28,500 nt of DNA, taken from a virus. A program made the position numbers and the translations under genes. How positions within the stretch are numbered: position 1 is the first letter of the stretch; each line of letters starts with the position of its first letter. The DNA lies in the IMG/VR virus record IMGVR_UViG_3300008448_000462, positions 1 to 28,500 of that record. The stretch is one strand, 5' to 3'. The notes beneath the pieces were generated by a model. It searched no databases. It saw only the letters and a list, made by a program, of their open reading frames with translations, and was not told the origin of the DNA. This document shows positions 1 to 28,500 of this stretch, one piece after another.

Positions 1-1
1 C

Positions 2-2301: not shown

Positions 2302-2304
2302 CAC

Positions 2305-3096: not shown

Positions 3097-3099
3097 GAA

Positions 3100-4545: not shown

Positions 4546-4547
4546 GA

Positions 4548-4751: not shown

Positions 4752-5197
4752 AGCTCGTACAACACCTATCCGGGGCTCTTATCGCCCTGATTGTCCTGTC
4801 GCCATTCGCTCTGCTGGTGGAGCCCATCCCAGTTTTGAGCTATACTCGCAATTATAGCACGCTTAACGTGTTACCGGGCGAGACTATTGGCGTGACTGCT
4901 ACTATAGAACGTGCAAGTGCTTGCGACAGCCGAGTGTATCGACAGTGGATTGACGTTCAAGGCAACACTCTTGGCGAAATTACAGTAGAGTTGCGCCGTA
5001 ATCTGCCCGCTGGTGTCGAGGACTACTTTGACCAAGTGCAGATACCGGACAATGTACTTCCCGGTCCACTACGTTACCGTGTAAAAACTAGGTTTTACTG
5101 CAACTTTTTGCAGCGTCTGCTCGGGATTGGCGCTGAGTTTGTAATGCCGGATGTGATCTTCACAGTCCGCAGCACAGGAGAAGCCTACAATGGGTAA
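4748..5197 (+). CDS. Membrane-anchored hypothetical protein with exported beta domain
   Basis: The GTG start at 4748 overlaps the preceding stop (GTGA). The frame is open further upstream but would then run inside the previous gene, so the GTG giving 149 residues is preferred. Residues ~8-27 are a hydrophobic signal-anchor (SGALIALIVLSPFALLV) without a lipobox Cys. The rest is beta-rich, with two Cys (in ASACDSRVYRQW and RFYCNFLQ) that could pair outside the cytoplasm. The segment around VLPGETIGVTATIERASACD resembles an Ig-like domain. I believe similar one-anchor proteins occur near phage endolysins without assigned function. The DNA from 4820 to 5160 is visibly more AT-rich than its surroundings. 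A spanin-like role is possible but unsupported by motif. Confidence 0.65.
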   Translation: MKLVQHLSGALIALIVLSPFALLVEPIPVLSYTRNYSTLNVLPGETIGVTATIERASACDSRVYRQWIDVQGNTLGEITVELRRNLPAGVEDYFDQVQIPDNVLPGPLRYRVKTRFYCNFLQRLLGIGAEFVMPDVIFTVRSTGEAYNG

Positions 5198-5630
5198 TCG
5201 CATCAGGACTAACTGGATCGTAGTGCATTGCAGCGCCACCCGCCCGACCCAAGTCAACATCGGCGCGAAGGACATCCGCCAGTGGCACATCGCCAAGGGC
5301 TGGGCCGACATCGGCTACCACTTCGTCATCAAGCGCAACGGCAAGCTGGAAACGGGCCGGGACGTACGCGCGGTCGGCGCGCATGTCGAGGGGCACAATC
5401 TTGACAGTATCGGCATCTGTATGGTCGGCGGCATCAACGACCGAACGTTCCGCCCCGAGAGCAACTACACGGCGGCACAGTGGGCCACTTTGAAGACCCT
5501 TGTAGCCGATCTCGTTAAAAGATATCCTAAAGCGAAAGTTCTGGGGCACCGTGATTTCAAGGGTGTTCAGAAAGCCTGCCCGTGCTTTGAGGCCAAGTCA
5601 TGGGCCAAAAAGAGCGGATTTCCAACCTAA
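5190..5630 (+). CDS. Endolysin: N-acetylmuramoyl-L-alanine amidase, T7-lysozyme type
   Basis: The 146-residue length matches T7-type amidases (Amidase_2 family), which cut the bond between MurNAc and L-alanine in peptidoglycan. Zinc ligands fit H13 (in WIVVHCSAT), H120 (in LGHRDF) and C130 (in KACPCF); Y43 (IGYHFVI) and K128 match the catalytic Tyr and Lys of T7 lysozyme. The family features GYHFVIKRNGKLE, VGAHVEGHN and SIGICMVGG are present. There is no signal peptide, so release through a holin is expected. The start overlaps the previous stop by 8 bases and has AGGAG upstream. In T7 this protein also inhibits the phage RNA polymerase; whether this one does cannot be told. Confidence 0.95.
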   Translation: MGNRIRTNWIVVHCSATRPTQVNIGAKDIRQWHIAKGWADIGYHFVIKRNGKLETGRDVRAVGAHVEGHNLDSIGICMVGGINDRTFRPESNYTAAQWATLKTLVADLVKRYPKAKVLGHRDFKGVQKACPCFEAKSWAKKSGFPT

Positions 5631-5632
5631 TC

Positions 5633-5638
5633 GGAGAG
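5633..5638 (+). promoter_or_regulatory. Ribosome binding site fixing the holin-candidate start
   Basis: GGAGAG lies 6 bases before ATG 5645 and immediately after the amidase stop. It supports 5645 rather than the in-frame ATG at 5600, which lies inside the amidase gene. Confidence 0.6.
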
Positions 5639-5644
5639 CAACAT

Positions 5645-5818
5645 ATGTTCACCTCTATTGATAAGGCCATCGCTGCGCTCATCATGGCAGTGGTGTTCCT
5701 CCTCAACTACTTCCTCGGTGTCAACCTCGGTTGGCTCACGCAGGACACGGTCGCCACGCTCGTTGCGGCGCTCACCCCGCTGATCGTGTGGATGGTGCCG
5801 AACAAGAAGCCTGCCTAA
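5645..5818 (+). CDS. Holin candidate (57 residues, two membrane spans)
   Basis: The protein MFTSIDKAIAALIMAVVFLL onward has two hydrophobic helices, about residues 8-24 and 32-50, joined by a short turn (GVNLGWLTQD), and ends in the charged tail PNKKPA. Size, two spans and charged C-terminus fit small class II-type holins, and the gene follows the amidase directly. Similar proteins with a LTPLIVWMVPNK-like end are, to my knowledge, common next to phage endolysins but rarely proven as holins. Its TAA shares one base with the next ATG (TAATG). Confidence 0.7.
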   Translation: MFTSIDKAIAALIMAVVFLLNYFLGVNLGWLTQDTVATLVAALTPLIVWMVPNKKPA

Positions 5819-6087
5819 TGACTTGGCTAGACTGGACGGCGTACATAGTGATCTTCGCCGCGCTCTTTTGCGTGGTGTATCTCTATGCTCGTCGTCCGGC
5901 CTTCTGGGTTGAGTTCTCCGCGCGGGCTATTGTGGCCCTGCGCCCGTTCCTCATATCCGCTCTTTCTGCGGCCCTCGCCTACGTCATCAACCGCAACACC
6001 CCCGAGATCGAAGCACAGATGGCGGAATGCACCCGCCGTGGCGGTCGATGGGATAATTTCCGCAAGAAGTGCGTGGAGAATAGATAA
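5818..6087 (+). CDS. Small membrane protein with basic cytoplasmic tail
   Basis: The product is 89 residues starting MTWLDWTAYIVIFAALF. ATG 5818 overlaps the preceding stop by one base; the frame is open upstream inside the holin candidate, but no reason favours an earlier start. Residues ~7-24 and ~42-60 are hydrophobic; the tail (from NRNTPEIEAQMAEC) is charged and has two Cys in a C-T-R-R-G-G-R-W-x-x-x-x-x-K-x-C pattern. It may be an antiholin, second holin subunit or spanin-like protein, but no family is recognised. The stop overlaps the portal start by one base. Confidence 0.65.
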   Translation: MTWLDWTAYIVIFAALFCVVYLYARRPAFWVEFSARAIVALRPFLISALSAALAYVINRNTPEIEAQMAECTRRGGRWDNFRKKCVENR

Positions 6088-8162
6088 TGGCTGGGCTCAC
6101 ACTCCTTCGCGTGGTCAGTAACGACGACATCACCAAGCAGGAAAAGCAGCGCCAGCAGGCTGAGCTTGATGCGCGGCAGAACAGCCCGCTGATGCTCGGC
6201 TTGGCCGCACATCTTCGTACGTGTTGGGATGCTGCCCAGATGTCGAAGCGCCCCATCGAAGACCTCATGCTCAAGGCCATGCGGCAGCGCAACGGTGAGT
6301 ACGAGGGTGACAAGCTGAACGCCATCCGCGCGCAGGGCGGCTCCGAAGTCTACATGATGCTGACCGAGATCAAGTGCCGCGCTGCCGAAAGCTGGCTGCG
6401 TGACATCCTGATGGATAACGGCAGTCCGCCATGGGACTTGCAGCCCACCCCTATCCCTGACCTGTCGCCGCCCGACATGGAGGAACTCAAGGCTGCGTTT
6501 GCCGAGCAGGTGGTCATCACCATGCAGCAGACCGGCCAAGCCCCCACTCGCGGCGAGATGTTGGAACTCAAGGAGGTTGTCTCCCAGCAGTTCCGCTTCA
6601 AGCTCCTGCAGGCGGCGCAGAACCGCGTCGACCGCATGAAGACCAAGATCGAAGACCAGTTCGTGCAGGGCGGCTTCTCTGACGCCTTCAACGAGTTCAT
6701 CACTGATCTGGCCACGTTCCCCGCAGCGTTCCTCAAGGGACCGATTGTCCGCCGCCAGCGGTACCTCAAGTGGAACACCACCCCCGAAGGCAAGACCACA
6801 GTCGAGCCGGGCGAGCGCATCGCTCCCGAGTTCGAGCGTGTCAGCCCGTTCGATATCTACCCGGAGCCGGGCATTACCCGTATCAGCGACGGTTACATTT
6901 TCGAGCGGCACGAACTTAGCCGTCAGTCGCTGGCCGACCTTATCGGCGTGCCGGGCTACGACGAGGCTGCGGTGCGGTCTGCGCTGGAGATCGGCCCCAG
7001 CACATCGTGGGTGTATATGTCCTACGATGACCAGCGTGAGGACGCCGAGCGCAAGTACTACACCGAGCGCCGCCCCACCGATGTCTATGACGCCCTTGAG
7101 TTCTGGGGCAAAGTGTCAGGCAAGATGCTCCGCGACTGGGGCATGTCTGAGGAAGAAGTGCCGGACGAGGCCAAGGAATACGACGCCAACGTGTGGATGG
7201 TGGGCGACCTCGTCATCAAGGCGGTGCTGAACTACGACCCGCTGGGCGAGAAGCCGTACTGCAAGACCTCGTTCATCAAGACCCCCGGCTCGTTCTGGGG
7301 CCGGTCGATCCCCGAGATTATCGAAGACCTGCAGAACGTCTGTAACGCTGCCGCCCGCGCCCTTGTCAACAACATGGGCATCGCGTCCGGCCCGCAGGTC
7401 GAAGTCAACCTTGAGCGCATTCCGCCGAACGAAGACATCACGGCCATGCACCCGTGGAAAATCTGGCAGGTCCTCAACGATCCGCTGGGTAGCTCCGCGC
7501 CCGCCATCCGGTTCAACCAGCCGGAAGACAACTCCAGTTCGCTGATGGCGGTCTACGAGAAGTTCAGCCGTCTGGCCGACGACCACTCTGGCATCCCCTC
7601 CTACCTGTACGGCGACACGGATGTGCAGGGCGCTGGCCGCACGGCGTCCGGCCTGTCCATGCTCATGGGCTCAGCGGGCAAGGGTATCCGGCAGGTTGTC
7701 ATGCACATCGACGGCGATGTGGTGAAGCCTATCGTCCAGCGCCAGTTCGTGTTCAACATGCGCTACGACGAGGACGAGAGCATCAAGGGCGATGCGCAGG
7801 TCGTGCCGCGCGGTGCTGTCAACCTCGCTGTCAAGGAGACCACCAACGTCCGCCGCGTCGAGTTCCTCAACGCCACCGCCAACGAGATCGACATGGGCAT
7901 CATCGGCAACAATGGCCGCGCCGCCATCCTGCGCGAGATCGCCAAGGGTCTGCAGATGCCGGTCGATGAAGTCGTTCCGTCCCGCGAGAACTTGGCGTTC
8001 AAGCAGAAGGCGCAGGAACGTGCTGCACTGCAGCAACAGATGGTTGCACAGCAGCAAGGCCAGATACCCGGTCAGGCACCGGCACCGCAGACCCTCGACC
8101 CCGGCGGGGCACCCCCCGGCGGTACGAACACGGTGTCTAACCAGCAGACTGGTGCGGCATGA
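6087..8162 (+). CDS. Portal (head-tail connector) protein
   Basis: The 691 residues fall in the size range of podovirus portals, which form the dodecameric ring at the capsid vertex through which DNA is packaged and ejected. Recognisable stretches are the conserved core SFWGRSIPEIIEDLQNVCN followed by AARALVNNMGIASGPQVEV (about residues 390-435) and, around 514-560, GAGRTASGLSMLMGSAGKGI with a long helix after it. The N-terminus has the helical, charged start typical of the wing region, and the C-terminus ends in a Gln/Pro/Gly-rich tail (about residues 650-691). The order portal, scaffold, capsid supports the call. The start shares one base with the previous stop, and the end overlaps the next gene (ATGA). 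Confidence 0.88.
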   Translation: MAGLTLLRVVSNDDITKQEKQRQQAELDARQNSPLMLGLAAHLRTCWDAAQMSKRPIEDLMLKAMRQRNGEYEGDKLNAIRAQGGSEVYMMLTEIKCRAAESWLRDILMDNGSPPWDLQPTPIPDLSPPDMEELKAAFAEQVVITMQQTGQAPTRGEMLELKEVVSQQFRFKLLQAAQNRVDRMKTKIEDQFVQGGFSDAFNEFITDLATFPAAFLKGPIVRRQRYLKWNTTPEGKTTVEPGERIAPEFERVSPFDIYPEPGITRISDGYIFERHELSRQSLADLIGVPGYDEAAVRSALEIGPSTSWVYMSYDDQREDAERKYYTERRPTDVYDALEFWGKVSGKMLRDWGMSEEEVPDEAKEYDANVWMVGDLVIKAVLNYDPLGEKPYCKTSFIKTPGSFWGRSIPEIIEDLQNVCNAAARALVNNMGIASGPQVEVNLERIPPNEDITAMHPWKIWQVLNDPLGSSAPAIRFNQPEDNSSSLMAVYEKFSRLADDHSGIPSYLYGDTDVQGAGRTASGLSMLMGSAGKGIRQVVMHIDGDVVKPIVQRQFVFNMRYDEDESIKGDAQVVPRGAVNLAVKETTNVRRVEFLNATANEIDMGIIGNNGRAAILREIAKGLQMPVDEVVPSRENLAFKQKAQERAALQQQMVAQQQGQIPGQAPAPQTLDPGGAPPGGTNTVSNQQTGAA

Positions 8163-9441: not shown

Positions 9442-10368
9442 ATGGCATTCCCCACCGCCCCCGGTCGCCCGAACTATTCGGGCAACTTCATCCCCGAAAT
9501 CTGGTCGGGCAAGCTGATTGAGAACTTCTACGACGCCACCGTTCTCACGGCTATCTCCAACACCGACTACGAAGGCGAGATCAAGCAGTACGGCGACACG
9601 GTCAACATCCGTGGCACGCCGAACATCACGATCCGCGAATACGTCAAGGGCCAGAACCTTGTCGTGGAAACCCCGGACAAGCCGAAAATCCAGCTTCTCA
9701 TCGACAAGGGCGAGTACTTCTCCTGCGTCGAGGACGACATCGACCGCGTTCAGACGGACATCAAGCTGATGGACGAATGGGCGAAGGATGCGTCCGAGCA
9801 GATGAAGATCAAGATCGACCAGCGCGTCCTCACCGACATGCTGCCGGACATCGGTGCCCTCAACAAGGGAACTGCCGCTGGTGCCCAGTCGCTCGCGTTC
9901 AACCTCGGCTCCTCGGCTTCTCCCCTCACCATCACCAAGGACGGCGCAGGCGGCACCACTTCCGTGATCGACCTCATCGTCGACATGGGTTCGGTGCTGG
10001 ACGAAGCCAACTGCCCCGAGGGTGGTCGCTTCCTCGTCATCCCGGCTCGCATGGCGAACCTGATCAAGAAGTCGGAACTCAAGGACGCGTCGATCTCCGG
10101 CGACAGCCAGTCTGTCATCCGCAACGGTCGCCTCGGCATGATCGACCGCTTCACGCTGTACGTGAGCCACAACCTCAATGTGTCCTCGAACAAGTACAGC
10201 CTCATCGCTGGCACCAAGATGGGCCTCACCTTTGCGTCGCAGATGACGCAGATGGAGACCCTTCGTTCTGAAACCACCTTCGGTGATATCATCCGTGGTC
10301 TGCAGGTTTACGGCTACAAGGTCGTCAAGCCGGAAGCACTGTCCATGGCTGTGGCCACCTTCGCTTAA
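9442..10368 (+). CDS. Major capsid protein (HK97-fold expected)
   Basis: This 308-residue protein begins MAFPTAPGRPNYSGNFIPEI and is preceded by GGAG 7 bases upstream. It has the layout of podovirus capsid proteins: an N-arm with FIPEIWSGKLIENF, an E-loop region with YGDTVNIRGTPNITIREY, a long spine helix near residues 95-135 (IDRVQTDIKLMDEWAKDASE), an A-domain part with a FLVIPARMANLIKKS helix, and a C-terminal stretch FGDIIRGLQVYGYKVVKPE typical of the family. High Ala/Gly/Asp and well-optimised codons fit an abundant protein. No protease is nearby, and no long N-terminal delta domain is present, which agrees with use of a separate scaffold. Confidence 0.9.
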   Translation: MAFPTAPGRPNYSGNFIPEIWSGKLIENFYDATVLTAISNTDYEGEIKQYGDTVNIRGTPNITIREYVKGQNLVVETPDKPKIQLLIDKGEYFSCVEDDIDRVQTDIKLMDEWAKDASEQMKIKIDQRVLTDMLPDIGALNKGTAAGAQSLAFNLGSSASPLTITKDGAGGTTSVIDLIVDMGSVLDEANCPEGGRFLVIPARMANLIKKSELKDASISGDSQSVIRNGRLGMIDRFTLYVSHNLNVSSNKYSLIAGTKMGLTFASQMTQMETLRSETTFGDIIRGLQVYGYKVVKPEALSMAVATFA

Positions 10369-11307: not shown

Positions 11308-12072
11308 ATGCCTACTTCGCTTACCGGCTCGCGTGTAAAAGACACGTACACGCAAATTCTCCATGTCGACGGCGGCGTGAGCGCCACCGAACGACTGGTT
11401 CGTACGGCGTCCGGCACAGCCACCGCCCTCAGCCTCGGCACGACCTCGGCGGCAGTCGAGAACATCCGCCTTGACGGCAACACCATCTCCACGCTCAACG
11501 CCAACGGCGACCTCAACCTGACCCCCAACGGTACGGGTAAAGTCGTCATCTCGGCTGCGCAGCTTACCGGCGGCACCATCGCTGGCATCACCGACCTCGC
11601 TATTGCTGACGGCGGCACAGGTGCCTCGACGGCGGCAGACGCGCGCACCAACCTCGGCCTCGGTTCGATGGCCACACAGAATGCCAGCACTGTTGCCGTT
11701 ACGGGCGGCTCGCTCTTGGCGTCTTCCACTCTGGGCTACGGTGTCATCACAGGCACCGGTGGTTCGGTCACGCAGGCTACAAGTAAGTCTACGGGCGTCA
11801 CGCTCGACAAGCCATGCGGGCAGATCATAACCGACGCGGCCAGCTTGTCTGGTGACACGCGTGTCAGCTTCACGTTCACCAACAGCACCATCGGTGCGTT
11901 CAGCACGGTGATCGTGAATATTGCCAGTGGCGCTACAGTGGACGCTTACGTTGTGTCCGTAACTGCGGTAGTATCTGGTTCGTGCCGCATCCAAATTGCC
12001 AACCTCACGGCTGGTGTCCTTGGTGAGGCGTTGACGTTAAATTACACCGTTCTTGGCGGAACCAACGCCTGA
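11308..12072 (+). CDS. Tail or head fibre protein
   Basis: The product has 254 residues. The N-terminal ~90 residues carry short beta repeats (LRLDG/NGDLNLTPNGTGKVV type). The middle has the hallmark phage side-tail-fibre motif GGTGASTAADARTNLGLGSM followed by ATQNASTV. The C-terminal ~120 residues (from GYGVITGTGGSVTQ) match the C-terminal domain of the truncated fibre gene at the left edge: both have VTQ-x-T-S-[KR], GVTL-[DN]-K and VNIASGAT. The ATG at 11308 follows a GAGGG stretch and the second hairpin. It is probably a trimeric fibre. Location among head genes suggests it could be a head fibre, but this is inference. Confidence 0.8.
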   Translation: MPTSLTGSRVKDTYTQILHVDGGVSATERLVRTASGTATALSLGTTSAAVENIRLDGNTISTLNANGDLNLTPNGTGKVVISAAQLTGGTIAGITDLAIADGGTGASTAADARTNLGLGSMATQNASTVAVTGGSLLASSTLGYGVITGTGGSVTQATSKSTGVTLDKPCGQIITDAASLSGDTRVSFTFTNSTIGAFSTVIVNIASGATVDAYVVSVTAVVSGSCRIQIANLTAGVLGEALTLNYTVLGGTNA

Positions 12073-14607: not shown

Positions 14608-15912
14608 GTGGCTATCAAACTTTCTAACAACGCGTTCTCCCTTCTTGCCGCCGATATCACCAACAACGCCACCTCCTTGACGGTGACTTCTGGCGACGGT
14701 GATCTGTTCCCGGTACTGGGTGCAAACGACTATTTCTATTGCACGCTGCTTGATGTCGACAACAACATGGAAATCGTGCAGGTCACGGCCCGCACGGGCA
14801 ACCTGTTCACCATCATCCGTGCGCGCGAAGACACCACGGCGAAGTCGTTCAATGCCGGTTCTCGCGTAGAGCTTCGCGTCACTGCGCAGTCCGTGCTGGA
14901 CGCGGTGACGACCAACCTTACCTCCGTCACACTGGTCTCGTTCGGCGTAACGGCCACCGCTTCCGAACTGAACGTCCTCGACGGTATTACGTCCACCACC
15001 GCAGAGCTTAACCTGCTCGACGGCGCGATCATCACTACCTCCGAACTGAACATCCTCGACGGTGTTACCGCTTCGGCAAACGACATCAACAAGCTGGTCG
15101 GCCTCAACGCGACCACCGCCGAACTGAACAAGCTGTCCGGTGTTACTGCCACCCCCTCGGACATCAACAAGCTGTCCGGCCTCACCGCGTCGACTGCAGA
15201 ACTGAACAAGCTGGCCGGTGCCACGCTGACGACTGCAGAACTGAACAAGCTGACCGGTGTCACTGCCACCACGGCAGAGATCAACAAGCTCGCTGGCGTC
15301 ACCGTCACCACGGCGGAAATCAACCGTCTGGCCGGTGTCACCTCCAACATCCAGACCCAGATCAACAGCTTCGCCACGTTCCCCGCCGGGTCCGTGATCT
15401 CGTTCGCTGGTGCCACCGCACCTGTTGGCTGGCTGCTGTGTGATGGTGCGGCGGTTAGCCGGACCACCTATGCCACGCTCTTTACAGCCATCGGCACCAC
15501 GTACGGTGCAGGCAACGGCTCCACCACGTTCAACCTGCCTGACATGCGCGGGCGCGTAGCGGCTGGCAAGGACGACATGGGCGGCACTGCCGCCAACCGT
15601 CTGACCGGCACCTCCGGTGGTGTGGACGGTCTTACCCTCGGCTCTGCTGGCGGCTTGGAAACCCACGCGCTCACGACTGCCCAGATGCCGCTCCACGGCC
15701 ACCCGTGGTTCAGCACCTACACCACGCAGACTACGTTCCAGTCGAAGTCGACCGGCGGCTTCCCGCACTCTACTAACTCCACAGGTGTTCGCCCCGCCTA
15801 CACCGGCACGCCCAGCGGCGCGCAGGGTCAGCAGATCGGTGGCGCTGGTGGTAACCAAGCTCACAACAACGTCCAGCCAACCCTTGTGATGAACTCCATT
15901 ATCAAGACATGA
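14608..15912 (+). CDS. Tail fibre with collar domain
   Basis: The GTG start at 14608 follows a GGGGG stretch (near 14598-14602). The protein is 434 residues. Residues ~1-90 form a beta attachment domain (NNATSLTVTSGDGDLFP, FTIIRAREDT). Residues ~117-246 contain ten tandem 13-residue repeats of T-T-A-E-[LI]-N-K-L-[SA]-G-V-T-A type. After a helix (NIQTQINSFATFP) comes a phage tail collar domain (PF07484): AGSVISFAGATAPVGWLLCD, then GDGAAVSRTTYATLF-like, FNLPDMRGRVAAGKDDMGG. The C-terminus has HALTTAQMPLHGH and ends in NNVQPTLVMNSIIKT, as in many collar proteins. It probably forms a trimeric fibre. It overlaps the next gene (ATGA). Confidence 0.9.
   Translation: MAIKLSNNAFSLLAADITNNATSLTVTSGDGDLFPVLGANDYFYCTLLDVDNNMEIVQVTARTGNLFTIIRAREDTTAKSFNAGSRVELRVTAQSVLDAVTTNLTSVTLVSFGVTATASELNVLDGITSTTAELNLLDGAIITTSELNILDGVTASANDINKLVGLNATTAELNKLSGVTATPSDINKLSGLTASTAELNKLAGATLTTAELNKLTGVTATTAEINKLAGVTVTTAEINRLAGVTSNIQTQINSFATFPAGSVISFAGATAPVGWLLCDGAAVSRTTYATLFTAIGTTYGAGNGSTTFNLPDMRGRVAAGKDDMGGTAANRLTGTSGGVDGLTLGSAGGLETHALTTAQMPLHGHPWFSTYTTQTTFQSKSTGGFPHSTNSTGVRPAYTGTPSGAQGQQIGGAGGNQAHNNVQPTLVMNSIIKT
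14956..15345 (+). repeat. Ten tandem 13-residue repeats (39 bp)
   Basis: The units have the form TTAELNKLAGVTA with variants SELN, NDIN and SDIN, all in frame. Such repeats likely form a beta-helical or triple-stranded fibre shaft. The DNA of adjacent units is similar but not identical. Confidence 0.85.
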
Positions 15913-18548
15913 CGGCGCTCAAGATCACCAAGTTTCTCGGGACGGCTCCGCGCAATAGCCCAGAGCTTCTGTCCGACACATCTGCGCAGGTTGCGCGGAA
16001 TGCGAAGCTGTATTCTGGTGACCTCATTCCGTATCCGCAGCCCCTCATCGTGGCCAACACCAAGCGTACCGGCACGATCAGGACGATCTACGGTCTGCGT
16101 CAAGGTGCCAACGACGATCCCAAGTGGCTGTCGTTCTCCGACAAGGTCGACATCGTAACCCCGGCTACCGACGAGCTTGAGGAGCACCGCTTCTACTATG
16201 CTGGCGACGGCGTGCCGAAAGTCAGCACGTATGCTCTCGCCACCGGCAACAGCGCCGGTCCTTACCCTGTCGACTACTACGAGCTTGGGCTCCCGCTTCC
16301 GACTACGAAGCCGACCATAACGCCCACGGAATTTACGTCCGTCACTGCGCTGTCCTTCGCGCGTGATGCGTCCAACTTCGTCACGCTCACCACGTTCGAC
16401 AGTCACAATTTGAAGTCGGGCGCAGTCATCACTGTGTCTGGATTTGACTACCGCACCGGTACCTACAGCCGGTCGGGCACGACTATCACGGTGACGCTTA
16501 CTGATCACGGGCTGTCGTCGGGCTCCAACGTGTACATCGAGTTTACGTCCGGCACGGCCACGACCAACATCTACACGGTCACGGTGACCGGCACCAACAC
16601 GTTCACCTGCAGCGACACTGCGTCTGGTTCCACCAGTGGCAACATGCGGTTTGACATCCGCGACTTCAACACGATCACTGAGGTTGTCGTCATAGACGAC
16701 ACCACGATCTCGTACTTCGCTCCCGGCCCAGAAGTCGCGCAGACGACCGTCATCAAGTACGGCGAGTACACGCAGGTGGCTTCGGCCACGGCGACCGTCA
16801 CTTGCACGGCGCACGGCTTGGCTTCCGGTGATGTCGTCTATCTTCGTGTCACCTCTGGCACCGCCACCACTGGCGCGTACCCGGTGACTGTCACCGGAGC
16901 AAATACCTTCACAGTGATCTTGCCGGTCAGCGAGACAACCAGCGGTGATGCCGATATCTATCTCGTAGTAGGTAAGATCGACCTTGGCGATCAGGTTCAG
17001 GGCCGCGCATATCTGTACACTTGGTTTACACCGTGGCGCGAGGAGAGCATCGGCTCCGACCCGACTGAGCCCGTGTACATCCGCGAAGGACAGATCGTAA
17101 CCGTCACGGACCTGCCGAACTTCAAGCCTTCGGGCAAGAACAACATCGCTGGCGTCCGCCTGTACCGCACGCTGTCGTCGCCCACCGATAGCGACTTCTT
17201 CCTGCTCAAGACCCTGTGGTTCCCTGCGCTCGTCTCGCAGCTTAGCCGCACTGGCGGCACCGTGCGTGTTAAGATGGCGCAGTACCACAACCTCATCAAG
17301 GGCGACCGCTTCAAGCTGATCTGCGACACGGCCCCCACGTTCGATGCCGAGGGCGTGCTCGTCTCCCGCGTGATCAATGCCACCGAGTTCGAGTTCGTGC
17401 AGACCGGCGACGATGTTGCAGTCGCCAACGTGATCGGCACGCTCTACTACGATGTGTCGGAGAAGGAGGAGAACACGGCGCGCTACTGGGGTGACGCTGG
17501 CAACTTCACGTTCACCGACGACTTCAACTTCCGCAGCCTGCTCGACATCCTCAAGTCCACCGAATACGAGAAGCCGCCCGAAGGGCTCAAGGGGCTCACC
17601 GTTATTCAGTCGAACATCCTTGCCGGGTTCGTCGGCAACGATCTCTACCTGTCGGAGCCGGGGCAGTACCATGCTTGGCCCAGCCAGTACCGGCGCTCGT
17701 TCGAGTATGACATCGTGGCGCTTGCCTATGTCGGCGGCGTGCTGCTGGTGCTCACCACCGGCTACCCCTACATCGTGGAGGGCTCCAGCCCGGCTACCAT
17801 GGTGCCGCAGAAGATGGCGGTAATGTATCCGTGTCTAAGCGCAGCCTCTGTCACACAAACAAGTTTCGGTGTGATATGGTCTACGCACGACGGACTTGCC
17901 GTGTTCAGCACGGGCGGTACGCAACTGCTTACCAAGATCGTCCATCACAGCGACACATGGAATGACGCCATTGACCCCACCGAGATTGTGGGCAGCGTGT
18001 TCAAGGGCAACTTCATCGGGTCTGCCGAGACGGCTGCGCTCACGCTGGAGAGCCTTGAGACCACGGACGGCACCGGCATGTCGTTTGTCGACCTCGACTT
18101 CACGTTCACCTCGGCGTGGTACGACCCGGTCACCAACCGCTTGTACGCGGTGAGCGGCACTAACGGCGACATCTACCAGTGGGACGACCGCGCGCAGGGG
18201 GCTATGACCCTGCGCTGGAAGTCGAAGGTGTTTGTCACTCCGCTGTATGTCAACCTCGGCGCAGCCAAGGTCGTGGCCGACTACGATGGCGAGAGCGAGA
18301 GCCCGCTGTGGGAAAACATCACAGAAACTTGGAACACCTGCAATGTGCAGTGGAACGGCGGCGTGTCTGTCACGTTCAACCTGTACGCTAACAAGCAGCT
18401 AATATTCACAACCGAGCGCACCGACAGTGGCATATTCAGATTGCCCGCTGGGTACAAGAGCGATACGTATGAGGTTGAGGTGCTCAGCCCTGTTCGCGTC
18501 CGCTCCGTGCATCTTGCAGACACACCGTTGGGATTGCAGACAGTATGA
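15909..18548 (+). CDS. Tail nozzle / tail tubular B-like protein
   Basis: The 879 residues and position after adaptor genes fit the nozzle of short-tailed phages. The start TKFLGTAPRNSPELLSDTSA with QVARNAKLYSGDLIPYPQPL is the common nozzle-type opening; GLRQGANDDPKWLSFSDKV and LYTWFTPWREESIGSDPTEP followed by RLYRT-like core follow, and late parts have QYRRSFEYDIVALAYVGGVL, LVLTTGYPYIVEGSS and MYPCLSAASVTQTSFGVIWS. Between residues ~145 and 355, and again near 445-520, there are inserted beta modules with H-[GN]-L-x-x-G-x-x-V signatures. The protein is expected to form a hexameric tube. The start overlaps the collar gene; the end overlaps the next (ATGA). Confidence 0.82.
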   Translation: MTALKITKFLGTAPRNSPELLSDTSAQVARNAKLYSGDLIPYPQPLIVANTKRTGTIRTIYGLRQGANDDPKWLSFSDKVDIVTPATDELEEHRFYYAGDGVPKVSTYALATGNSAGPYPVDYYELGLPLPTTKPTITPTEFTSVTALSFARDASNFVTLTTFDSHNLKSGAVITVSGFDYRTGTYSRSGTTITVTLTDHGLSSGSNVYIEFTSGTATTNIYTVTVTGTNTFTCSDTASGSTSGNMRFDIRDFNTITEVVVIDDTTISYFAPGPEVAQTTVIKYGEYTQVASATATVTCTAHGLASGDVVYLRVTSGTATTGAYPVTVTGANTFTVILPVSETTSGDADIYLVVGKIDLGDQVQGRAYLYTWFTPWREESIGSDPTEPVYIREGQIVTVTDLPNFKPSGKNNIAGVRLYRTLSSPTDSDFFLLKTLWFPALVSQLSRTGGTVRVKMAQYHNLIKGDRFKLICDTAPTFDAEGVLVSRVINATEFEFVQTGDDVAVANVIGTLYYDVSEKEENTARYWGDAGNFTFTDDFNFRSLLDILKSTEYEKPPEGLKGLTVIQSNILAGFVGNDLYLSEPGQYHAWPSQYRRSFEYDIVALAYVGGVLLVLTTGYPYIVEGSSPATMVPQKMAVMYPCLSAASVTQTSFGVIWSTHDGLAVFSTGGTQLLTKIVHHSDTWNDAIDPTEIVGSVFKGNFIGSAETAALTLESLETTDGTGMSFVDLDFTFTSAWYDPVTNRLYAVSGTNGDIYQWDDRAQGAMTLRWKSKVFVTPLYVNLGAAKVVADYDGESESPLWENITETWNTCNVQWNGGVSVTFNLYANKQLIFTTERTDSGIFRLPAGYKSDTYEVEVLSPVRVRSVHLADTPLGLQTV

Positions 18549-20733: not shown

Positions 20734-22806
20734 ATGACCACGCAAAACTATAATGGTGGCGCAATCCTCGGCGGTGTGTCTGCTGAGACGCCTGACTGGC
20801 TCGGCTCCTACAACGAGGGCATGAACGCCGCCATCGACCAGAACACTGCGCTTCTTAACCAGAAAGAAGCCAAGCAGCGTATGGTCGAGAACGCCGCCGC
20901 CGAAGCGCGCCGCGCGCAGACGCATGGCTGGCTGGCTGATGAGCATCAGCGCATTCAAGACGCATGGGGGGCTACTCCCGGTAGTCTCGGCCCGATTGCA
21001 CGCCCGCAGGGGCCGGGCCTCGGCCCCATGCCCATGGTCAACGTCCCGGTTCCCGGCGCGCCTATTGCGCCCAACGCCGGACTGCAGACCGAACTGAACG
21101 CCCCCGCCCCGGCGGCTCCCGCTGCCAACCCCACAGATATTGTCACGCAGCTTCTGCCCGAGTGGGCACGCATGGAGCAGCAGGTCGGTCTGCCGCCCAA
21201 CTACATGGAAACCGTGTCGATGCTGGAAAGCTCCGGCGGCACGAATACCGGCGACGGTAAATATGTTGGTGTGTTCCAGATCGGTCCCGAGGTAGCAGCC
21301 GACTTCGGCGTCACGCCAGAGCAGCTTAAGGACCCGCGCATCAACTCGCAGGTCGCCGCCAAGCTGGCTGGCCGCAATGCAGCGGCACTTCGTGGCGCTC
21401 TTGGCCGTGAAGTGCAGGGCTGGGAAGTCTATCTCGCCCATCAGCAAGGGGCTGGTGGCGCGCTGGCGCTGCTCCGTAACCCGCAGATGAAGGCCCTCGA
21501 CGCCCTTGCGCAAGCATACGGCGGCGACCGCATGCAGGCTCAGCAGGCCATCATCCGCAATGGCGGCAACACCAACATGACTGCCGGTGAGTTCGCCGCT
21601 CTCTGGCAGCAGAAGTTCTCCGGTATCCGCCCGCAGCCGTTTACTGGCGAGGCCACCGACCCGCTCGCGCAGAAGCCTACCCTTGGCTCGCCCGCGCAGG
21701 CCCGCTTCGATCTCGGCCTTTCCGGCTACCCGGAAGACGGCGGGGCGTACAATTCCGACGCAGTGCAGCCCCTTGGCGACCTCCCCGCCGGGCTCAATAC
21801 GGACGGCACGTTCAAGACTGATGCACCTGCTGCGGCTCCTCCTGCCGCACCGGCCAACCCTAGTCCTGCCCCGGCTGCTCCTGCTCCTTCCAGCGCGCTA
21901 CCCGCTGCAGCAGGTACCCCCGGACTAACGCCGCCTTCGTCCGCTGGCGATGTGGTCCCTGCCGTCTCGCGTGGGGATTTTGCCGGGATTAACGCGCCGG
22001 GGCAGGGCACCATCGCTCAGCAGATCATGCGCACGCCCACCGGGCAGCAGACCGCGCTGCCTGACAGCGGCCAGTACATGGTCGAGCCCGCCAAAATCCA
22101 GTCGGATGCGTACGAGCTACAGCAGCTTCGCAACACGCTGGAAGTCCAGTATGCCGAAGCCGTACGGTTCCGTGACCGTGAGAGCATGAACGCCATTCGC
22201 GGTAAGGCCGTGGAAGTCGACGCCGCCCTGCGCCTCATGGACAACATGAAGTCCATCGCTGCCCTGCAGGGTGGAGATGTGAACCGGGTGTCGCAGACCC
22301 TGTCCCGCCTCACCGGTGGTAAGGTGCGTATCGAACCGCGCTCGGACGGCAAGTACAACGTGTACTACAACGGCCAGATGACTTACGAGGGTGTCACGCA
22401 GGACGCCTTCATTGCTGCACTGCGGTCGGAATACGACCAGCAGTATCAGGCTCAGGTGTCTGCTGCGCTCAAGCAGCAGGACGAGATCGGCATGGAAGTC
22501 CTCAAGAGCCAGCTTAAGACCAACGAGAACGTCACCAAGGAGACGGCGGTCGCCCTGCGCGAGCGCGCGACGAAGATGCTGGAAGCTGAACTCAAGCGCA
22601 TGGACCCTGAGAGCACTGTCAACGTGACGGAAGGCGCAGACGGCCCGTACGTTATCGTCACGCCCAAGACCGGTGGCGGCTCGCCGCGTATCTACGCAAT
22701 GCAGCCGGTGCGTGGTGTAGATGGTTCCCCGATGCTTGATGCCTCTGGTAATCCGAAACTTAAGCCGGTACTCTTGAACGGCGACAACTCCGTACCTGTT
22801 CAGTAA
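20734..22806 (+). CDS. Internal virion protein with lytic transglycosylase domain
   Basis: This 690-residue protein starts at ATG 20734, 8 bases after the previous stop, behind a GGGGG stretch. Residues ~140-297 form an SLT-type lytic transglycosylase: catalytic Glu is E165 in SMLESSGGTN, followed by GVFQIGPEVA (179-188) and YLAHQQGAGGALALL (233-247). Such domains cut the glycan strand so DNA and proteins can cross the peptidoglycan at infection. Upstream, residues 1-135 are helical then Pro-rich; residues ~345-405 form a Pro/Ala linker; the C-terminal ~250 residues are helical (DAYELQQLRNTLEVQYAEAV, later EMGMEVLKSQL-like). The role is thus virion-borne peptidoglycan opening rather than lysis. 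Confidence 0.85.
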   Translation: MTTQNYNGGAILGGVSAETPDWLGSYNEGMNAAIDQNTALLNQKEAKQRMVENAAAEARRAQTHGWLADEHQRIQDAWGATPGSLGPIARPQGPGLGPMPMVNVPVPGAPIAPNAGLQTELNAPAPAAPAANPTDIVTQLLPEWARMEQQVGLPPNYMETVSMLESSGGTNTGDGKYVGVFQIGPEVAADFGVTPEQLKDPRINSQVAAKLAGRNAAALRGALGREVQGWEVYLAHQQGAGGALALLRNPQMKALDALAQAYGGDRMQAQQAIIRNGGNTNMTAGEFAALWQQKFSGIRPQPFTGEATDPLAQKPTLGSPAQARFDLGLSGYPEDGGAYNSDAVQPLGDLPAGLNTDGTFKTDAPAAAPPAAPANPSPAPAAPAPSSALPAAAGTPGLTPPSSAGDVVPAVSRGDFAGINAPGQGTIAQQIMRTPTGQQTALPDSGQYMVEPAKIQSDAYELQQLRNTLEVQYAEAVRFRDRESMNAIRGKAVEVDAALRLMDNMKSIAALQGGDVNRVSQTLSRLTGGKVRIEPRSDGKYNVYYNGQMTYEGVTQDAFIAALRSEYDQQYQAQVSAALKQQDEIGMEVLKSQLKTNENVTKETAVALRERATKMLEAELKRMDPESTVNVTEGADGPYVIVTPKTGGGSPRIYAMQPVRGVDGSPMLDASGNPKLKPVLLNGDNSVPVQ

Positions 22807-22815
22807 GGGGAACAC

Positions 22816-25800
22816 ATGGCTGGGCTAAACGATCCCCTCACGCAACTTGACTATGGCGTGGATTACGCCCGTGGTCCGCAGAGCACCACGCAGCAGACCG
22901 GCCTTGCTGGGCTGGCTACTCCTGCCAACCTCGACATCGCCCGCGCCAACCAGAACGCCCTCGGCAGTCTGTCTCAGCTTGGCAACATGCAGCTTTCAGC
23001 ACCCCCGCCGCCCAGCGCCCCGCGCGGGCCGGTCCTCGCCATCAGCCGGTCCTCCGGCCAGATTTGGGCTAACGGCAAGCTGTTCACTATCGACGACGCG
23101 CAGGGTGCGCTCGACAGCCAGCAATATCTTTCTGCGGCCCCGGCTCCCGCCCCGGCTGCCGCCGCTGGCGACTGGGAAGCCCTCGACATGGACGCCTACA
23201 GCCAGCACATTGAGCAGATCAAGAACCCCGGCATGGGCACGCTGGCGTCCAAGAACTTCGGCATCGGCGTCGACAACATGCAGATGCTGGGCGGCTACGG
23301 CATGCAGTTCCTCGGTGCCGAGGAAACCGGACAGGCTGTCGTCAGGAGCCAGCTTGACGACCTCGCCAAGAACGCGCCGTACCAGCGCAACTTCGATGAG
23401 ATCGGCTCCGACCCGAACCGTGGCGTCATGGATTGGTTCATCGCCAACCTTGCGCAGCAGGGTCCGAACATCGTTGAGAGCGCGGTCACCGCAGCCATCG
23501 GTGCTGTAGCTGGCGGCGCAGCCGGTGGCGGTCCTAACCCGGCCACTGCCGTAGGCGGTGCCGTCACTGCCATGGTCGGCAAGCAGGCGTTCAAGCAGGC
23601 GCTTCTCGCTGCCGCCAAGAAGTACGCCGCTGGTGAAGCCCTCGACGCTGCCGAGACGAAGCTGCTCCGTGAGGCCGCTGGTCTTACCGCCGCTGCCCGT
23701 CAGCAGATCGCTTCCAAGGTCGGCACTTTCACTACTGACACCGCTGGCGTTACAACCCAGTTCGGAAAGCAGCAGGCGGTCAACGCAGCCAAAGATATTG
23801 TAGACGCCGGTACCAGCAAGATCGCCGCAGGCGGTCTCGCCCAAGCCAAGGTCGGCGGCGCAGCCATCGCCACTGGTGCGCAGAACTATGCCACTGGCGT
23901 AGCCGATATGTACGGTGAGAGCGTCGAGGGCGGTGATCCGTCTCGCGGCATGGCCGCGCTTGCTGGCGTTCCCTACGCCGCGCTGGAGACCCTGCCCGAG
24001 TTCATCGCTGCTGCCCGCATCTTCAAGGGTTTTGGTGCCAGCACCAAGTCGCTCACCGGCATGTCCACACTGGGCAAGACCGGCGAGATCGCCAAGCGTA
24101 TCGGCACGGGCGTAGCCGCTGGTGGTGCACTGGAAGGTTCCACCGAACTGGGGCAGGAGAGCCTCGGCATCGGCATGAACGCCGAGGTCGACCTCAACAG
24201 CCCAGAGGGCGTGTCGCGGATGCTGAACGCATTCGCAGCCGGTGCTGCCATCGGCGGCTTTGTCGGCGCAGGTTCCAACCTCAATACGGGCAAGCCGCAC
24301 AATCTCCTTGCTGGTGGGCTGCAGCCCGCTGACCAGAGCGGCAACACCATCCTCAGCGGCGAGATCATCCCGCCCACGCCGCCCAGCGGCTTGAAAGTGC
24401 CTGACGGTTCTGTGCCTCTGCTGGGTGGACCCACCCCGGCACAGCCTTCACTGGGTGGCACCACCATGTCCGGTTCGCCGTTCAGCGGCAACCAAGGCTC
24501 CTACTACACTGGCAACCCGGCAGACGATGCTGCGCTGAACCCGGCTGGCCCCATCCCCATGGGAGCCCCCGCGACACCCATGTCGCCCCTCCCCGGTCAG
24601 CCGCCTGTAAATATGTTGCCGAGCGCCAGCACGATCTATCAGGGCCAAGACCCCGGTGCGCAGCCGCCGCTGCAGATCACTGGCTCCACCGCGCCGACCC
24701 CCGTGCCGCCCCAGCTTCCCCCGGTTATGAACATGCCGGGGCCGGACCAGTACGGTTCTGCCCTGTCGCAGGTCGCCGCTGGTGATCTGCCGGGGGCCGT
24801 GCCGCCGCCCACTCCGGGGCTCAACCGGCTGCAGCAGTTGCAGCAGCAGGCCCGCACACAGACCACTGAGGCCAACAGCCAATCTGCGCTCGCGCAGACT
24901 GCTCGCGCCGAGGGGGGCAACCCCCTTACGCTTAAGCAAATGCTTGGGCAGAAGGTCGAGCAGTCTGCGCCAGCGCCCGCTGGCAAGGCGAAGCTGGCCA
25001 AGGGCAAGGCACCCAAGGTCGTAGCTCCCAAGGCTACGGTGCCGGTCACCACGGACGCGCCCGCTGCCCCGGTCGGCAAGACCAAGTTGGCGGCGAAGGT
25101 CGCTGCACCCGTGGCGGTTCCCGCCGCACAGGCCAAGCTGCAGAAGGGCAAGGCCGTCCAGAAGGTCGCGGAAGAAACCAGCACGCACCCGGTCCATGAC
25201 AAGTTCATCGTGGAACTGGACGATGCGCGCATGAACCTTGAGAGCAAGGGCAAGCTGCGGGCTATCGCCACGCGGGCGCTCAAGGCTGGTGTGCTGACAC
25301 AGGCCGACCTCAAGGAAGTCGAGCCGATGTTCAAGGACCGCGACATGAGCGCGGACGACATCGCGCCCGAACTGTCCAGCATGATCGAACGCAACAAGGA
25401 AGCCGCAGCGGCTCCGGTTGCCGAGGAGAAGCCCGCGCCCAAGGAGCGCAAGGCTTCGCCTGAGAAGACCTTCTCGCTCAAGCCTAAAGAGGAGGCGAAG
25501 GCACCGGAGGCTCCAAGCCCAAAAGCGGAAGGGGCCGCAGCCGCCCCTTCGCAAAAGGCTGAGGCGGTAGAGGACACGGACGCTGACGAGGAGTTCGAGC
25601 AGGCGGTCAAAGAGATCGTCCTTATGAACACCGAGGAAGCCTACGACCAGCGGAGCGAGTTTGAAAACCTCGACACCGCCCTGTGGATTTATTGGGACAA
25701 CATTGCCGACACCATCACCGAGAACTACAAGGACAAGGACCGGGATCGCGCTTACAAAGTTGCTGAGTACCACTTCGGTAAGCAGCACGATCACTATATG

Positions 25801-28500
25801 GCACGGGAAGCCAAGGAGCGTGCCAAGACCGCACTGGCTCTCGTTGACCAGAACAAGCCGCTCGTCGACCCCGAAGTTGAGGCGCGTATTGCGCGCGTCC
25901 AGCGGGAAGACGCAGAGATCGCTGCACTCTCCGAGCAGGATGACATGGCCGAGGTCGAAGACCTCATCAAGTCGGTCAACACCAACGAGCCCGGCAGCGT
26001 GGAGTACGAGGACAGCCTGTCTGCCCTGATCGGCTATGCCAAGGACGGCAAGACCGAGAAGAAGGCGCGAGCGGCTGCGTCCGAGTACATCGAAAACGAG
26101 ATCGACCCATCCGAACTCAAGGTCTTTGAGCGGTCCACGCAGGACGCTGTGACCCAGACGGAACTCGACTTCAACAACATCACGACCACCATGGAGCAAG
26201 TCAACAATGGGGAGGTGACGCTTACTCAGAAGTTGGTGGGTATCCTTGTGTCGGCGTGGAAGCGCATCAAGGATAAGAACTTCAAGTACGGCGACATCCC
26301 GCTGTCGGCCTACATCAAGGGTGGCCCGCAGTTCTTCCACATGAAGGACGGCAAGGTGGTGCCCAAGAGCGATGGGCGCTTCTCCACGACCATGTGGGAC
26401 AAGCCGGACGCCACGTTCAACGTCGGTAAGATGCGGCTCAGCATCGGCAAGTTTGTTTCCAAGCTGTCGATGAAGCCCACCGTGTACGTGTACAAGGATC
26501 AGGCCGACCTCAAGGCGCAGAACCCGGACCTGCACAAGAAGCTGGCGGCTGGTCGCCCCGGCGACTTCGATACCGTTATGGCGTCCGGTTACTCCATGGG
26601 CGATATCGTCGTCATATTCTCTGACCGCATCGGCAGCGAGCAGCACCTCGCCTTCGTGCTGGCGCACGAAACGCTGGGCCACTTCGGTCTGCGCGGCCTG
26701 ATGGACAAGGGCGACTTCAACAAGATTATGACCAGCCTCTACGACACCGACAGTCGACTGACTGCGGCTGTCGACGCGGCCATGCAGATACGCGGGCTGA
26801 GCAAGGCGGAAGCCGTAGAGGAATATCTTTCTGACTACGCAGCGCAGCTTCATACCAGTCTGGTGCGGCGCGTGTGGAACGGCGTCAAAGGCGCTCTCAA
26901 CCGGGTGGGTATCCAGTTCGGTGACGAGGCCATGCGCTATATCCTGAGCCAGTCTAAGCGGTACGTGAAGACCGGAGAGAAGACCGGAGTGTTCACTTCC
27001 TCGTCGGTCATGCACCGCATGTGGGGCGTGGAGAACGCACAGGTCGGACGCTTCGCCCAAGTGGATACCGCCAGCCAGAACGAGATGGTGGCCGACATGC
27101 TGCGCCACAGCGCGGCCATCCCCATGAACCTCAAGGACGCAGGGCGCACCCTTGCAGACGCACTTGGTTCGTGGGACAGCTTCAAGACGGCGGTGTTCAG
27201 CCTCTCCAACTATCAGGCGCTGCGCAACCCCGGCCTCTATGCGTTCGAGAAACTGCTGGACGAAACCCGCCAGCACGAACAGTACGTGTACAACAAGTAC
27301 AACGCTAAGCTGGAAAAGCTGCTGTTCAAGAGCGAGGCGCATCGCGCCGCTGTCAGCCGTATGTTGCTGGAAGGCCGCGCCGTGTCGGTCTACCGCTTGC
27401 TGCAGGAACCCTTCGATCCCAAGGACCGCAGCACCCAGCTATTCAAGCTGAACCCCACCACTGGTGATCTCGAACAGAACATCACTGCCGTCGATGAGTT
27501 CATCAAGAAGGGCATCCTGTCCTTCGATGAGATGAAGAACGGCGTCGAGTACACCCGCGAGGTGATGAACAAAGACGGCGCGATGGAGAAGCGCAAGGAG
27601 AAGTTCAAGGGCTACCCCGAACTGACCCAAGACCAGTACGATGATTACGTGCTGTCTCGCCGCACCGTGGCTGACGTTGAGATGGAGTTGCTCAAGGCCA
27701 AGTACGCCAACTTCCTGCAGACCGAGGGCGTGTCGAAGAAAGCTGTCCGCCGCTTCCTCAAGAACAGCAAGGTGGGCGATGAGGCCGACAAACTCGTAAA
27801 GCGCACGTTCAACAAATACAAAGAAATCTACACGGCTGGTTACACCGTCGATGACCGTGGCAACCTTGAGCCCGGCACCAAGGAGATGGCGGACGCCGAC
27901 AGCTTCCTTGAGGCGGTCAACCGCGCCATCATCAGCGCCGACGACAAGAATGACCAAGCCGTGCGCGACTTCTTCGACAAGCAGAAGGTTGCCGACGACT
28001 TCATGGACAACCTCAAGGAGTTCCGTGCCAACCGCAAGGTGCCGGACGGCGACTTGACGTTCCTGTTCCAGAACGAGGTGAAGCGCATCGTCCTTGAGGA
28101 TGTGAACCTCGGCGTCGAGGAGGAGCGCGCCAAGCGCACCATGGCTGGTGGCTACGTCCCGGTCATCCGCGACAAGGCGTTCGAGCTTCGCCTGCAGGCT
28201 TACGACAAGAACGACCAAGAGGTGAAGCTGCATGAGAACCACAAGAAGCTGCTGACCTACAGCCAGTTCGGAGAGCGCAGCACGGCGGCATCCGCAGCAG
28301 AACTTATTGACGCGCAGTTCGAGGGCAAGACGTTCGAGGTCTGGGCCGACAAGGGCGATGGCACGTTCGACAAGACCGAGGTCACGCTCAAGGCCAAGTA
28401 CGGCGATGCACTATCGCAGGTGGGTTCCGACCCGGCGCTGAACCTTGACGAGTTCATTCATGGCCTGCGGCTGTTCAAGATCAATCTCGCGCCTGACAAG
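22816..28500 (+). CDS. Giant internal/polyvalent virion protein with HExxGH metallopeptidase-like domain (3' end outside window)
   Basis: The frame from ATG 22816 (GGGG upstream) stays open for 1895 codons to the right edge. Segments: ~1-200 polar with Pro tracts; ~205-255 and ~378-490 Gly/Ala-rich hydrophobic stretches, including GVAAGGALEGSTELGQESLG, a pattern I associate with large phage internal proteins; ~510-700 Pro/Gly linker; ~715-800 Lys/Ala/Pro-rich; ~800-1170 charged helices; ~1170-1400 a metallopeptidase-like domain with HETLGH (1284-1289) followed by GLRGL, then EEYLSD (1335-1340) as possible third ligand; beyond 1400, helical, with GYVPVIRD near 1778. It probably enters the cell with the DNA and may act there. 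Which part is processed, and the C-terminus, cannot be seen. Confidence 0.85.
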   Translation, partial: MAGLNDPLTQLDYGVDYARGPQSTTQQTGLAGLATPANLDIARANQNALGSLSQLGNMQLSAPPPPSAPRGPVLAISRSSGQIWANGKLFTIDDAQGALDSQQYLSAAPAPAPAAAAGDWEALDMDAYSQHIEQIKNPGMGTLASKNFGIGVDNMQMLGGYGMQFLGAEETGQAVVRSQLDDLAKNAPYQRNFDEIGSDPNRGVMDWFIANLAQQGPNIVESAVTAAIGAVAGGAAGGGPNPATAVGGAVTAMVGKQAFKQALLAAAKKYAAGEALDAAETKLLREAAGLTAAARQQIASKVGTFTTDTAGVTTQFGKQQAVNAAKDIVDAGTSKIAAGGLAQAKVGGAAIATGAQNYATGVADMYGESVEGGDPSRGMAALAGVPYAALETLPEFIAAARIFKGFGASTKSLTGMSTLGKTGEIAKRIGTGVAAGGALEGSTELGQESLGIGMNAEVDLNSPEGVSRMLNAFAAGAAIGGFVGAGSNLNTGKPHNLLAGGLQPADQSGNTILSGEIIPPTPPSGLKVPDGSVPLLGGPTPAQPSLGGTTMSGSPFSGNQGSYYTGNPADDAALNPAGPIPMGAPATPMSPLPGQPPVNMLPSASTIYQGQDPGAQPPLQITGSTAPTPVPPQLPPVMNMPGPDQYGSALSQVAAGDLPGAVPPPTPGLNRLQQLQQQARTQTTEANSQSALAQTARAEGGNPLTLKQMLGQKVEQSAPAPAGKAKLAKGKAPKVVAPKATVPVTTDAPAAPVGKTKLAAKVAAPVAVPAAQAKLQKGKAVQKVAEETSTHPVHDKFIVELDDARMNLESKGKLRAIATRALKAGVLTQADLKEVEPMFKDRDMSADDIAPELSSMIERNKEAAAAPVAEEKPAPKERKASPEKTFSLKPKEEAKAPEAPSPKAEGAAAAPSQKAEAVEDTDADEEFEQAVKEIVLMNTEEAYDQRSEFENLDTALWIYWDNIADTITENYKDKDRDRAYKVAEYHFGKQHDHYMAREAKERAKTALALVDQNKPLVDPEVEARIARVQREDAEIAALSEQDDMAEVEDLIKSVNTNEPGSVEYEDSLSALIGYAKDGKTEKKARAAASEYIENEIDPSELKVFERSTQDAVTQTELDFNNITTTMEQVNNGEVTLTQKLVGILVSAWKRIKDKNFKYGDIPLSAYIKGGPQFFHMKDGKVVPKSDGRFSTTMWDKPDATFNVGKMRLSIGKFVSKLSMKPTVYVYKDQADLKAQNPDLHKKLAAGRPGDFDTVMASGYSMGDIVVIFSDRIGSEQHLAFVLAHETLGHFGLRGLMDKGDFNKIMTSLYDTDSRLTAAVDAAMQIRGLSKAEAVEEYLSDYAAQLHTSLVRRVWNGVKGALNRVGIQFGDEAMRYILSQSKRYVKTGEKTGVFTSSSVMHRMWGVENAQVGRFAQVDTASQNEMVADMLRHSAAIPMNLKDAGRTLADALGSWDSFKTAVFSLSNYQALRNPGLYAFEKLLDETRQHEQYVYNKYNAKLEKLLFKSEAHRAAVSRMLLEGRAVSVYRLLQEPFDPKDRSTQLFKLNPTTGDLEQNITAVDEFIKKGILSFDEMKNGVEYTREVMNKDGAMEKRKEKFKGYPELTQDQYDDYVLSRRTVADVEMELLKAKYANFLQTEGVSKKAVRRFLKNSKVGDEADKLVKRTFNKYKEIYTAGYTVDDRGNLEPGTKEMADADSFLEAVNRAIISADDKNDQAVRDFFDKQKVADDFMDNLKEFRANRKVPDGDLTFLFQNEVKRIVLEDVNLGVEEERAKRTMAGGYVPVIRDKAFELRLQAYDKNDQEVKLHENHKKLLTYSQFGERSTAASAAELIDAQFEGKTFEVWADKGDGTFDKTEVTLKAKYGDALSQVGSDPALNLDEFIHGLRLFKINLAPDK
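26665..26682 (+). other. HExxGH metal-binding motif within giant protein
   Basis: Codons for H-E-T-L-G-H. Two His and one Glu would bind zinc and activate water; the later EEYLSD (26818-26835) could supply a Glu ligand. The six-residue spacing is HExxGH rather than HExxH, as in the dipeptidyl-peptidase III family (M49), and, as far as I recall, in some phage polyvalent-protein peptidases. Confidence 0.65.

Follow-up and report, generated by a model that had tools for sequence, protein, structure and literature searches.

The window analysed here, the whole 28,500 bases of the IMG/VR virus record IMGVR_UViG_3300008448_000462, ends within a gene for a predicted giant virion protein (22816–28500, + strand; ATG start, 1895 codons, 3′ end lost at the contig end). 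We read its product, with a probability of roughly 0.55, as an internal virion protein of giant size and of the polyvalent class from a Bcep22-related podovirus, which would be packed, ejected at infection and most likely cut by its own zincin domain at the flanks of that domain. What is new here is that a short motif, G[RK][FY][SA], brackets the zincin and is nearly absent elsewhere in these proteins.

The frame is coding, as follows from its conservation at the protein level in 36 other contigs together with the pattern of codon-position mismatches, which is 0.22/0.18/0.43 against the related locus L004 and 0.29/0.23/0.49 against L041 (over 709 codons). AAGGGG lies a few bases 5′ of the ATG. 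Because the record ends with the window, the frame, which runs without a stop to the last base, cannot be followed further in its own genome; the single uninterrupted frame of at least 1895 residues that had been proposed from the sequence is borne out and is open-ended. Instead of stopping right after this point, the relatives run on: L041 and L004 have another 684–689 residues past the equivalent of residue 1895, so that by comparison the full-length window protein is expected to have ~2580 residues, ~685 of which are missing here. Complete relatives have frames of ~2430–2950 aa, and in L041 and L004 long opposite-strand genes come after the giant. Inside the giant gene of the window, a 964-aa opposite-strand ORF (24448–27342, −) is most likely a by-product of the high third-position GC (79%) and is unnecessary for explaining the sequence.

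In IMG/VR, 36 loci are related to residues 1180–1460, with identity of up to 70%, and seven to the N-terminal part. The 1895-aa protein matched nothing in Pfam (E up to 1), in PHROG or among PDB sequences and, by tblastn, nothing in 50,697 phage records; from these available residues, the branch to which it belongs is unrecognised by public family libraries. The last 496 residues as a query on viral contigs and the zincin alignment as a query on bacterial genomes returned no confirmed relative.

The giant follows a series of virion genes. These include a portal-type protein (6087–8162, +; phrog_332 head-tail adaptor, E 6e-62; phrog_1216 portal, E 5e-12) at the same place as the portal of BcepIL02, a major head protein (9442–10368, +; phrog_267, E 8e-59), tail-fibre-like genes, and an 879-aa internal-virion-type protein (15909–18548, +; phrog_511, E 7e-102) that is homologous to BcepIL02 gp63 and has tblastn matches to Bcep22-like phages. 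Immediately before the giant, in line with the transglycosylase that had been noticed there, lies the gene of a 690-aa lytic-transglycosylase-like protein (20734–22806, +; phrog_4067 transglycosylase, E 4e-12), residues 184–283 of which weakly match the lytic transglycosylase 3bkh (E 0.0015). The virion genes of BcepIL02 stand in the same order, ending in a 4667-aa DarB-like giant, and by these gene matches the neighbourhood of the window giant is that of Bcep22-like podoviruses. For the giant at this place in phage JC1, mass spectrometry of virions purified with CsCl gave 51 unique peptides, covering 15.6% of the protein (PMC9144972). Judged only from homologues, namely this JC1 counterpart, the window giant is very probably packed in the particle and sent into the cell with the DNA.

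Elsewhere in the window, the C-terminal parts of the products of 2–1798 and 11308–12072 both match phrog_18251 (unknown function) and adjoin tail spike/tail fibre matches, possibly as a repeated domain at two places in the tail genes. Within 1–6086, no terminase was recognised before the portal-type gene (TerL of BcepIL02 lies two genes before the portal), and a 481-aa product at 3100–4545 is without a good match.

The genomic position, after the same virion genes, is also that of the DarB-like giants BcepIL02 gp70 and JC1 gp69, in which the zincin likewise falls within the final third of the protein. The giant might accordingly be a DarB-like antirestriction protein as in Bcep22 phages, and its expected C-terminal domain is common to several DarB-type giants: a PLxRFG-type C-terminal region is present in those of Skulduggery, Pavtok and Atu_ph08, though not found by the same profile in those of BcepIL02 and JC1. 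However, neither the 1895 residues of the window nor seven viral-contig relatives have a Pfam match to a methylase or SWI2/SNF2 helicase, whereas a helicase-type (HepA superfamily) match is reported for JC1 gp69 (PMC9144972). The complete relatives have 2.4–2.9 thousand residues, as against 4.5–4.7 thousand in BcepIL02 and JC1, whose zincins moreover carry HExxH and not HExxGH. A DarB function was rejected for the available 1895 residues, the complete relatives also being without methylase-helicase, and we give this identity next to no credence.

More broadly, the window copy has, in its 1895 residues, neither a recognised methylase, helicase or polymerase nor any other recognised effector domain. 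The original prediction of a delivery vehicle for counter-defence or host take-over activities therefore stands in one half, as an ejected polyvalent-type protein is the probable interpretation, but not in the other, as such cargo was not found in this copy.

The part of the chain that had been called peptidase-like (residues 1191–1400; 26386–27015, +) is, from alignment, AlphaFold model and fold matches, a predicted zincin, i.e. a zinc protease. It contains HETLGH (H1284–H1289; 26665–26682, +), a predicted zinc-binding and catalytic motif of the HExxGH type, and all of H1284, E1285, G1288, H1289, G1291 and R1293 (HExxGHxGxR) are invariant in 28 of 28 aligned relatives. The same holds for each residue of EAVEE (E1332, A1333, V1334, E1335 and E1336; 26809–26823, +), which lies in the second helix and includes the candidate third zinc ligand. 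In the model, built with 25 sequences (mean pLDDT 80.8, pTM 0.80), the HE motif occupies helix 90–110 and the glutamates helix 145–162, after a small sheet; two histidines and a glutamate on two helices beside a small beta sheet are thus seen in sequence and model alike.

A Foldseek search of the model against the PDB gave weak matches, the best being an M61 peptidase (E 0.14), followed by lethal factor. Upon re-alignment, zinc metalloproteases came out on top, with lethal factor at Z 8.2 (159 residues, rmsd 4.0) and with PPEP-type Pro-Pro endopeptidases, MATCAP and IrrE/PprI among the other top folds. A Z of ~8 is only modest alone; the zincin assignment follows from the fact that the top fold rows are all of one class, combined with the invariant motif, and the region hence models as an enzyme fold and not as a non-enzymatic one. 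In BFVD, the best matches of the model are entries named 'large polyvalent protein' (E 7.5e-9). Since its activity is predicted from sequence and model, the domain might also be an inactive relic, retained only for the fold, in a passive structural giant; yet every residue proposed to bind metal or to catalyse is the same in all 28 diverse sequences, which makes such a relic very improbable.

HExxGH is also the zinc motif of dipeptidyl peptidase III (MEROPS M49), a family in which natural switching between HExxGH and HExxH occurs (PMC5805324). Membership of M49 was weighed on account of this motif and not adopted: the window protein differs in being without a Pfam match, and M49 is absent among the fold matches listed for the zincin model, which are other zincins. 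In the homologous stretch of locus L002, HELFHKGLR, the motif is HExxH, one residue shorter than HExxGH, and both forms of one zincin occur within related phage giants.

The window giant is probably a member of the phage polyvalent proteins, a described class (Iyer et al. 2017). Like these, it is a huge chain among the late virion genes of portal-type phages, and its zincin shares with the HEXXXH MPTases described in polyvalent proteins the four residues between the histidines, as well as having large polyvalent proteins as BFVD neighbours (Iyer et al. 2017, PMC5512222). A zincin-like MPTase is frequent in the class, though not required, and is present here. Polyvalent proteins combine at least two domains with unrelated biochemical activities; the 1895 residues of the window have one recognised enzyme domain, the zincin, and no second one was recognised in them, while the related locus L012 has two zincins.

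A zincin of the HExxGH type, related to the window's (profile E 1e-9), is carried by the giants of Vibrio phage 1F273_PE002 and Achromobacter phage CF418P1, which also share its virion-operon position. Unlike the window copy, the former has LPD39 and a weak, below-cut-off methyltransferase match, and the latter InPase, LPD3 and LPD38. The CF418P1 giant (L058:8822-16876) is annotated as 'putative portal', apparently a misnomer; in 1F273_PE002, an annotated reverse transcriptase plus Avd (diversity-generating retroelement) lie in the tail genes upstream of the giant (L047:14874-16525).

These two giants bear on the reading of the window protein as a structural inner-core or ejection-channel protein whose zincin would be a maturation protease acting only in head assembly. 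Such a role would agree with the position of the giant in a virion operon beside internal virion proteins, and with DdrB of phage P1, which is proteolytically processed before packaging, its MPTase being the proposed agent (PMC5512222). However, the zincin recurs in giants with unrelated cargo, namely the InPase of CF418P1 and the methyltransferase-like, below-cut-off segment of 1F273_PE002, pointing to a role that goes with the giant and not with the head. We consider a pure maturation protease improbable.

A role of the zincin within the giant is instead suggested by the motifs at its flanks. Upstream lies G1187-R-F-S1190 (26374–26385, +; 18 of 28 relatives) and downstream G1411-R-F-A1414 (27046–27057, +; 28 of 28 relatives), both candidate processing sites. 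The pattern scored was G[RKN][FYW][SATV], with zones of 80–130 residues before and 115–150 residues after the HE motif. Counted from the HE histidine, it occurs at +124 to +135 in every one of the 28 relatives and at −97 to −110 in the 18, with a second match at −73 in two; of the 10 without the upstream motif, some are fragments. The two flank zones, which comprise 3.6% of residues, hold 47 of the 60 matches. Outside them, there are 13 matches in 67,047 residues, compared with 17.5 expected from shuffled whole proteins. The upstream and downstream motifs occupy non-homologous positions, and the surrounding linkers differ in length. A similar pattern, [RKQ][FYW]S[VIM], is found at +131 to +139 after HExxH in BcepIL02, JC1, Skulduggery and POI1126, where 0.005–0.01 would be expected per protein in that zone, BcepIL02 and JC1, which have RFSV at +132, being close kin and most other distant zincin-motif giants tested being without the downstream motif. 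The giants of 1F273_PE002 and CF418P1 also have no flank motif in the zone tested.

On this distribution, the flank motifs are candidate self-cleavage or processing sites. Since the upstream motif is absent from 10 of 28 relatives and most distant giants have no downstream motif, they could also be structural. The wider proposal that G[RK][FY][SA] (RFSV-type) motifs are the recognition sites of polyvalent zincins, by which the ejected giants would divide themselves, at defined places, into a free peptidase plus a membrane part and a C-terminal one, is accordingly a tentative one that we would sooner doubt than accept.

If the motifs were merely structural, the zincin might be an effector that cuts host proteins (of defence, envelope or chaperone type) after ejection. 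Its nearest solved folds do include endopeptidases of protein substrates, i.e. lethal factor, PPEP and MATCAP, host-protein cleavage is listed as a possibility by Iyer et al. (PMC5512222), and the domain is the only recognised enzyme of the window copy and also better conserved than the rest of the available protein (top-residue fraction of the columns, 0.64–0.73). Motifs flanking the zincin on both sides, though, fit self-processing better than cleavage of a host target, and the sequence suggests no such target; we regard a host-directed effector as rather unlikely and retain self-cutting as the preferred reading.

The remaining parts of the chain fit the architecture that this reading needs to different degrees. 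The N-terminal module (residues 1–504; 22816–24327, +), 66–68% identical with L041/L043, carries the motif ADMYGESVEGGDPSRG and is a candidate membrane or ejection part. It is Gly/Ala-rich (G 16% and A 21% in residues 180–500), with moderate hydrophobic peaks near residues 219, 380 and 467. The Gly/Ala hydrophobic stretches of the original prediction are therefore present, but their hydrophobicity is only moderate: the best 19-residue Kyte-Doolittle mean is 1.45, at residue 219, none exceeds 1.6, and a canonical transmembrane helix is absent from the module by this measure. Glycine-zipper spacing was dropped as evidence of membrane insertion, being not above that of shuffled sequence. With hydrophobicity and spacing of this kind, the earlier label 'membrane-active' amounts to an inference. 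The profile of the module matches residues 484–769 of gp30 of Ochrobactrum phage POI1126 (E 8e-12), a Bcep22-type giant that has this module in common with the window protein, and also L002 P0002, a separate 753-aa protein (E 2e-11). In L002 (L002:2264-12124), as in L003 and L045, the relative of the giant is two separate genes, for the 753-aa N-terminal-module protein and a 1409-aa zincin-PLxRFG protein, separated by ~3.4 kb of other small genes.

A variable slot follows (residues 505–1184; 24328–26367, +), about half of which is made up of P, A, K, E, G and Q. The long linkers that had been described from the sequence are both here: Pro/Gly at residues 500–690 (P 20%, G 13%) and Lys/Ala at residues 690–800 (A 23%, K 14%). 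Among relatives, the slot is 532–1072 aa long, with two short conserved blocks (~787–860 and ~1005–1184). The window copy has no recognised cargo domain in it. In L012 (L012:5402-14236), another zincin-like segment, HEIAHALTL, sits in the slot at protein residue ~1013; it resembles parts of gp81 of Serratia phage Parlo (E 3e-7) and of a Rhizobium phage (RHph) giant (E 6e-6), so that the slot is able to take cargo.

Beyond the zincin, the further helical part that had been predicted is seen as a mostly helical stretch from residue 1400 to 1895, with a conserved region at residues 1415–1895 (27058–28500, +; model pLDDT 75.1) that has no convincing match to solved PDB folds. An ABC transporter fold, which gave the top rows at Z ~6, was judged to be helix-packing noise. 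In L041, the PLxRFG/tail-700 domain NF032893 begins at residue 1938 with 125 bits against a cut-off of 100; L041 and L009 score 125–128 bits and L002 P0003 is also above the cut-off. The C-terminal domain of the close relatives L041 and L009 thus belongs to this family, whereas the window copy ends just before it, and its own membership rests on relatives: its helical region is predicted to lead into a PLxRFG/tail-700 domain beyond the contig end.

How such a protein might work is proposed here by analogy with gp50 of phage N4 and with P1 DdrB. N4 gp50 is packaged and ejected (PMC12633501, PMC5512222) and has a comparable layout of N-terminal membrane module, flexible linkers, enzyme and C-terminal part with an MPTase. 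Its enzyme is an RNA polymerase; searches of the 1895 residues available here with Pfam and PHROGs recognised none. The N-terminal domain of gp50 inserts in nanodiscs and is thought to be linker-anchored to the membrane (PMC12633501). By the proposed mechanism, the giant would be a late product, like the head and tail proteins, and would be packaged into the capsid. At infection, it would exit after the transglycosylase-like protein, its long disordered linkers allowing the chain to be threaded through the tail, and the Gly/Ala-rich N-terminal module might help it into or across the envelope of the cell, as the N-terminus of the N4 polymerase does. The HExxGH zincin would then cut peptide bonds, most likely in the giant itself at G[RK][FY][SA] sites. 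Such cuts would split the giant into three pieces able to act in different places: its N-terminal module, the peptidase and a C-terminal PLxRFG part. A counter-precedent is the N4 vRNAP, which has an MPTase domain and is packaged uncleaved (PMC5512222).

Giant polyvalent proteins are common in phages, and their processing is mostly predicted. The clade described here offers a cargo-poor giant with one strongly conserved peptidase, bracketed by a short conserved motif that is testable as a cleavage site. If the motif is indeed cut, relatives such as L012 would be examples of a cargo slot set free by way of a flank motif, and, given that some DarB-type giants have it as well, the motif would be a processing signal of wider use in the polyvalent-protein class. 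Sequence alone would then reveal how such giants are divided on entry.
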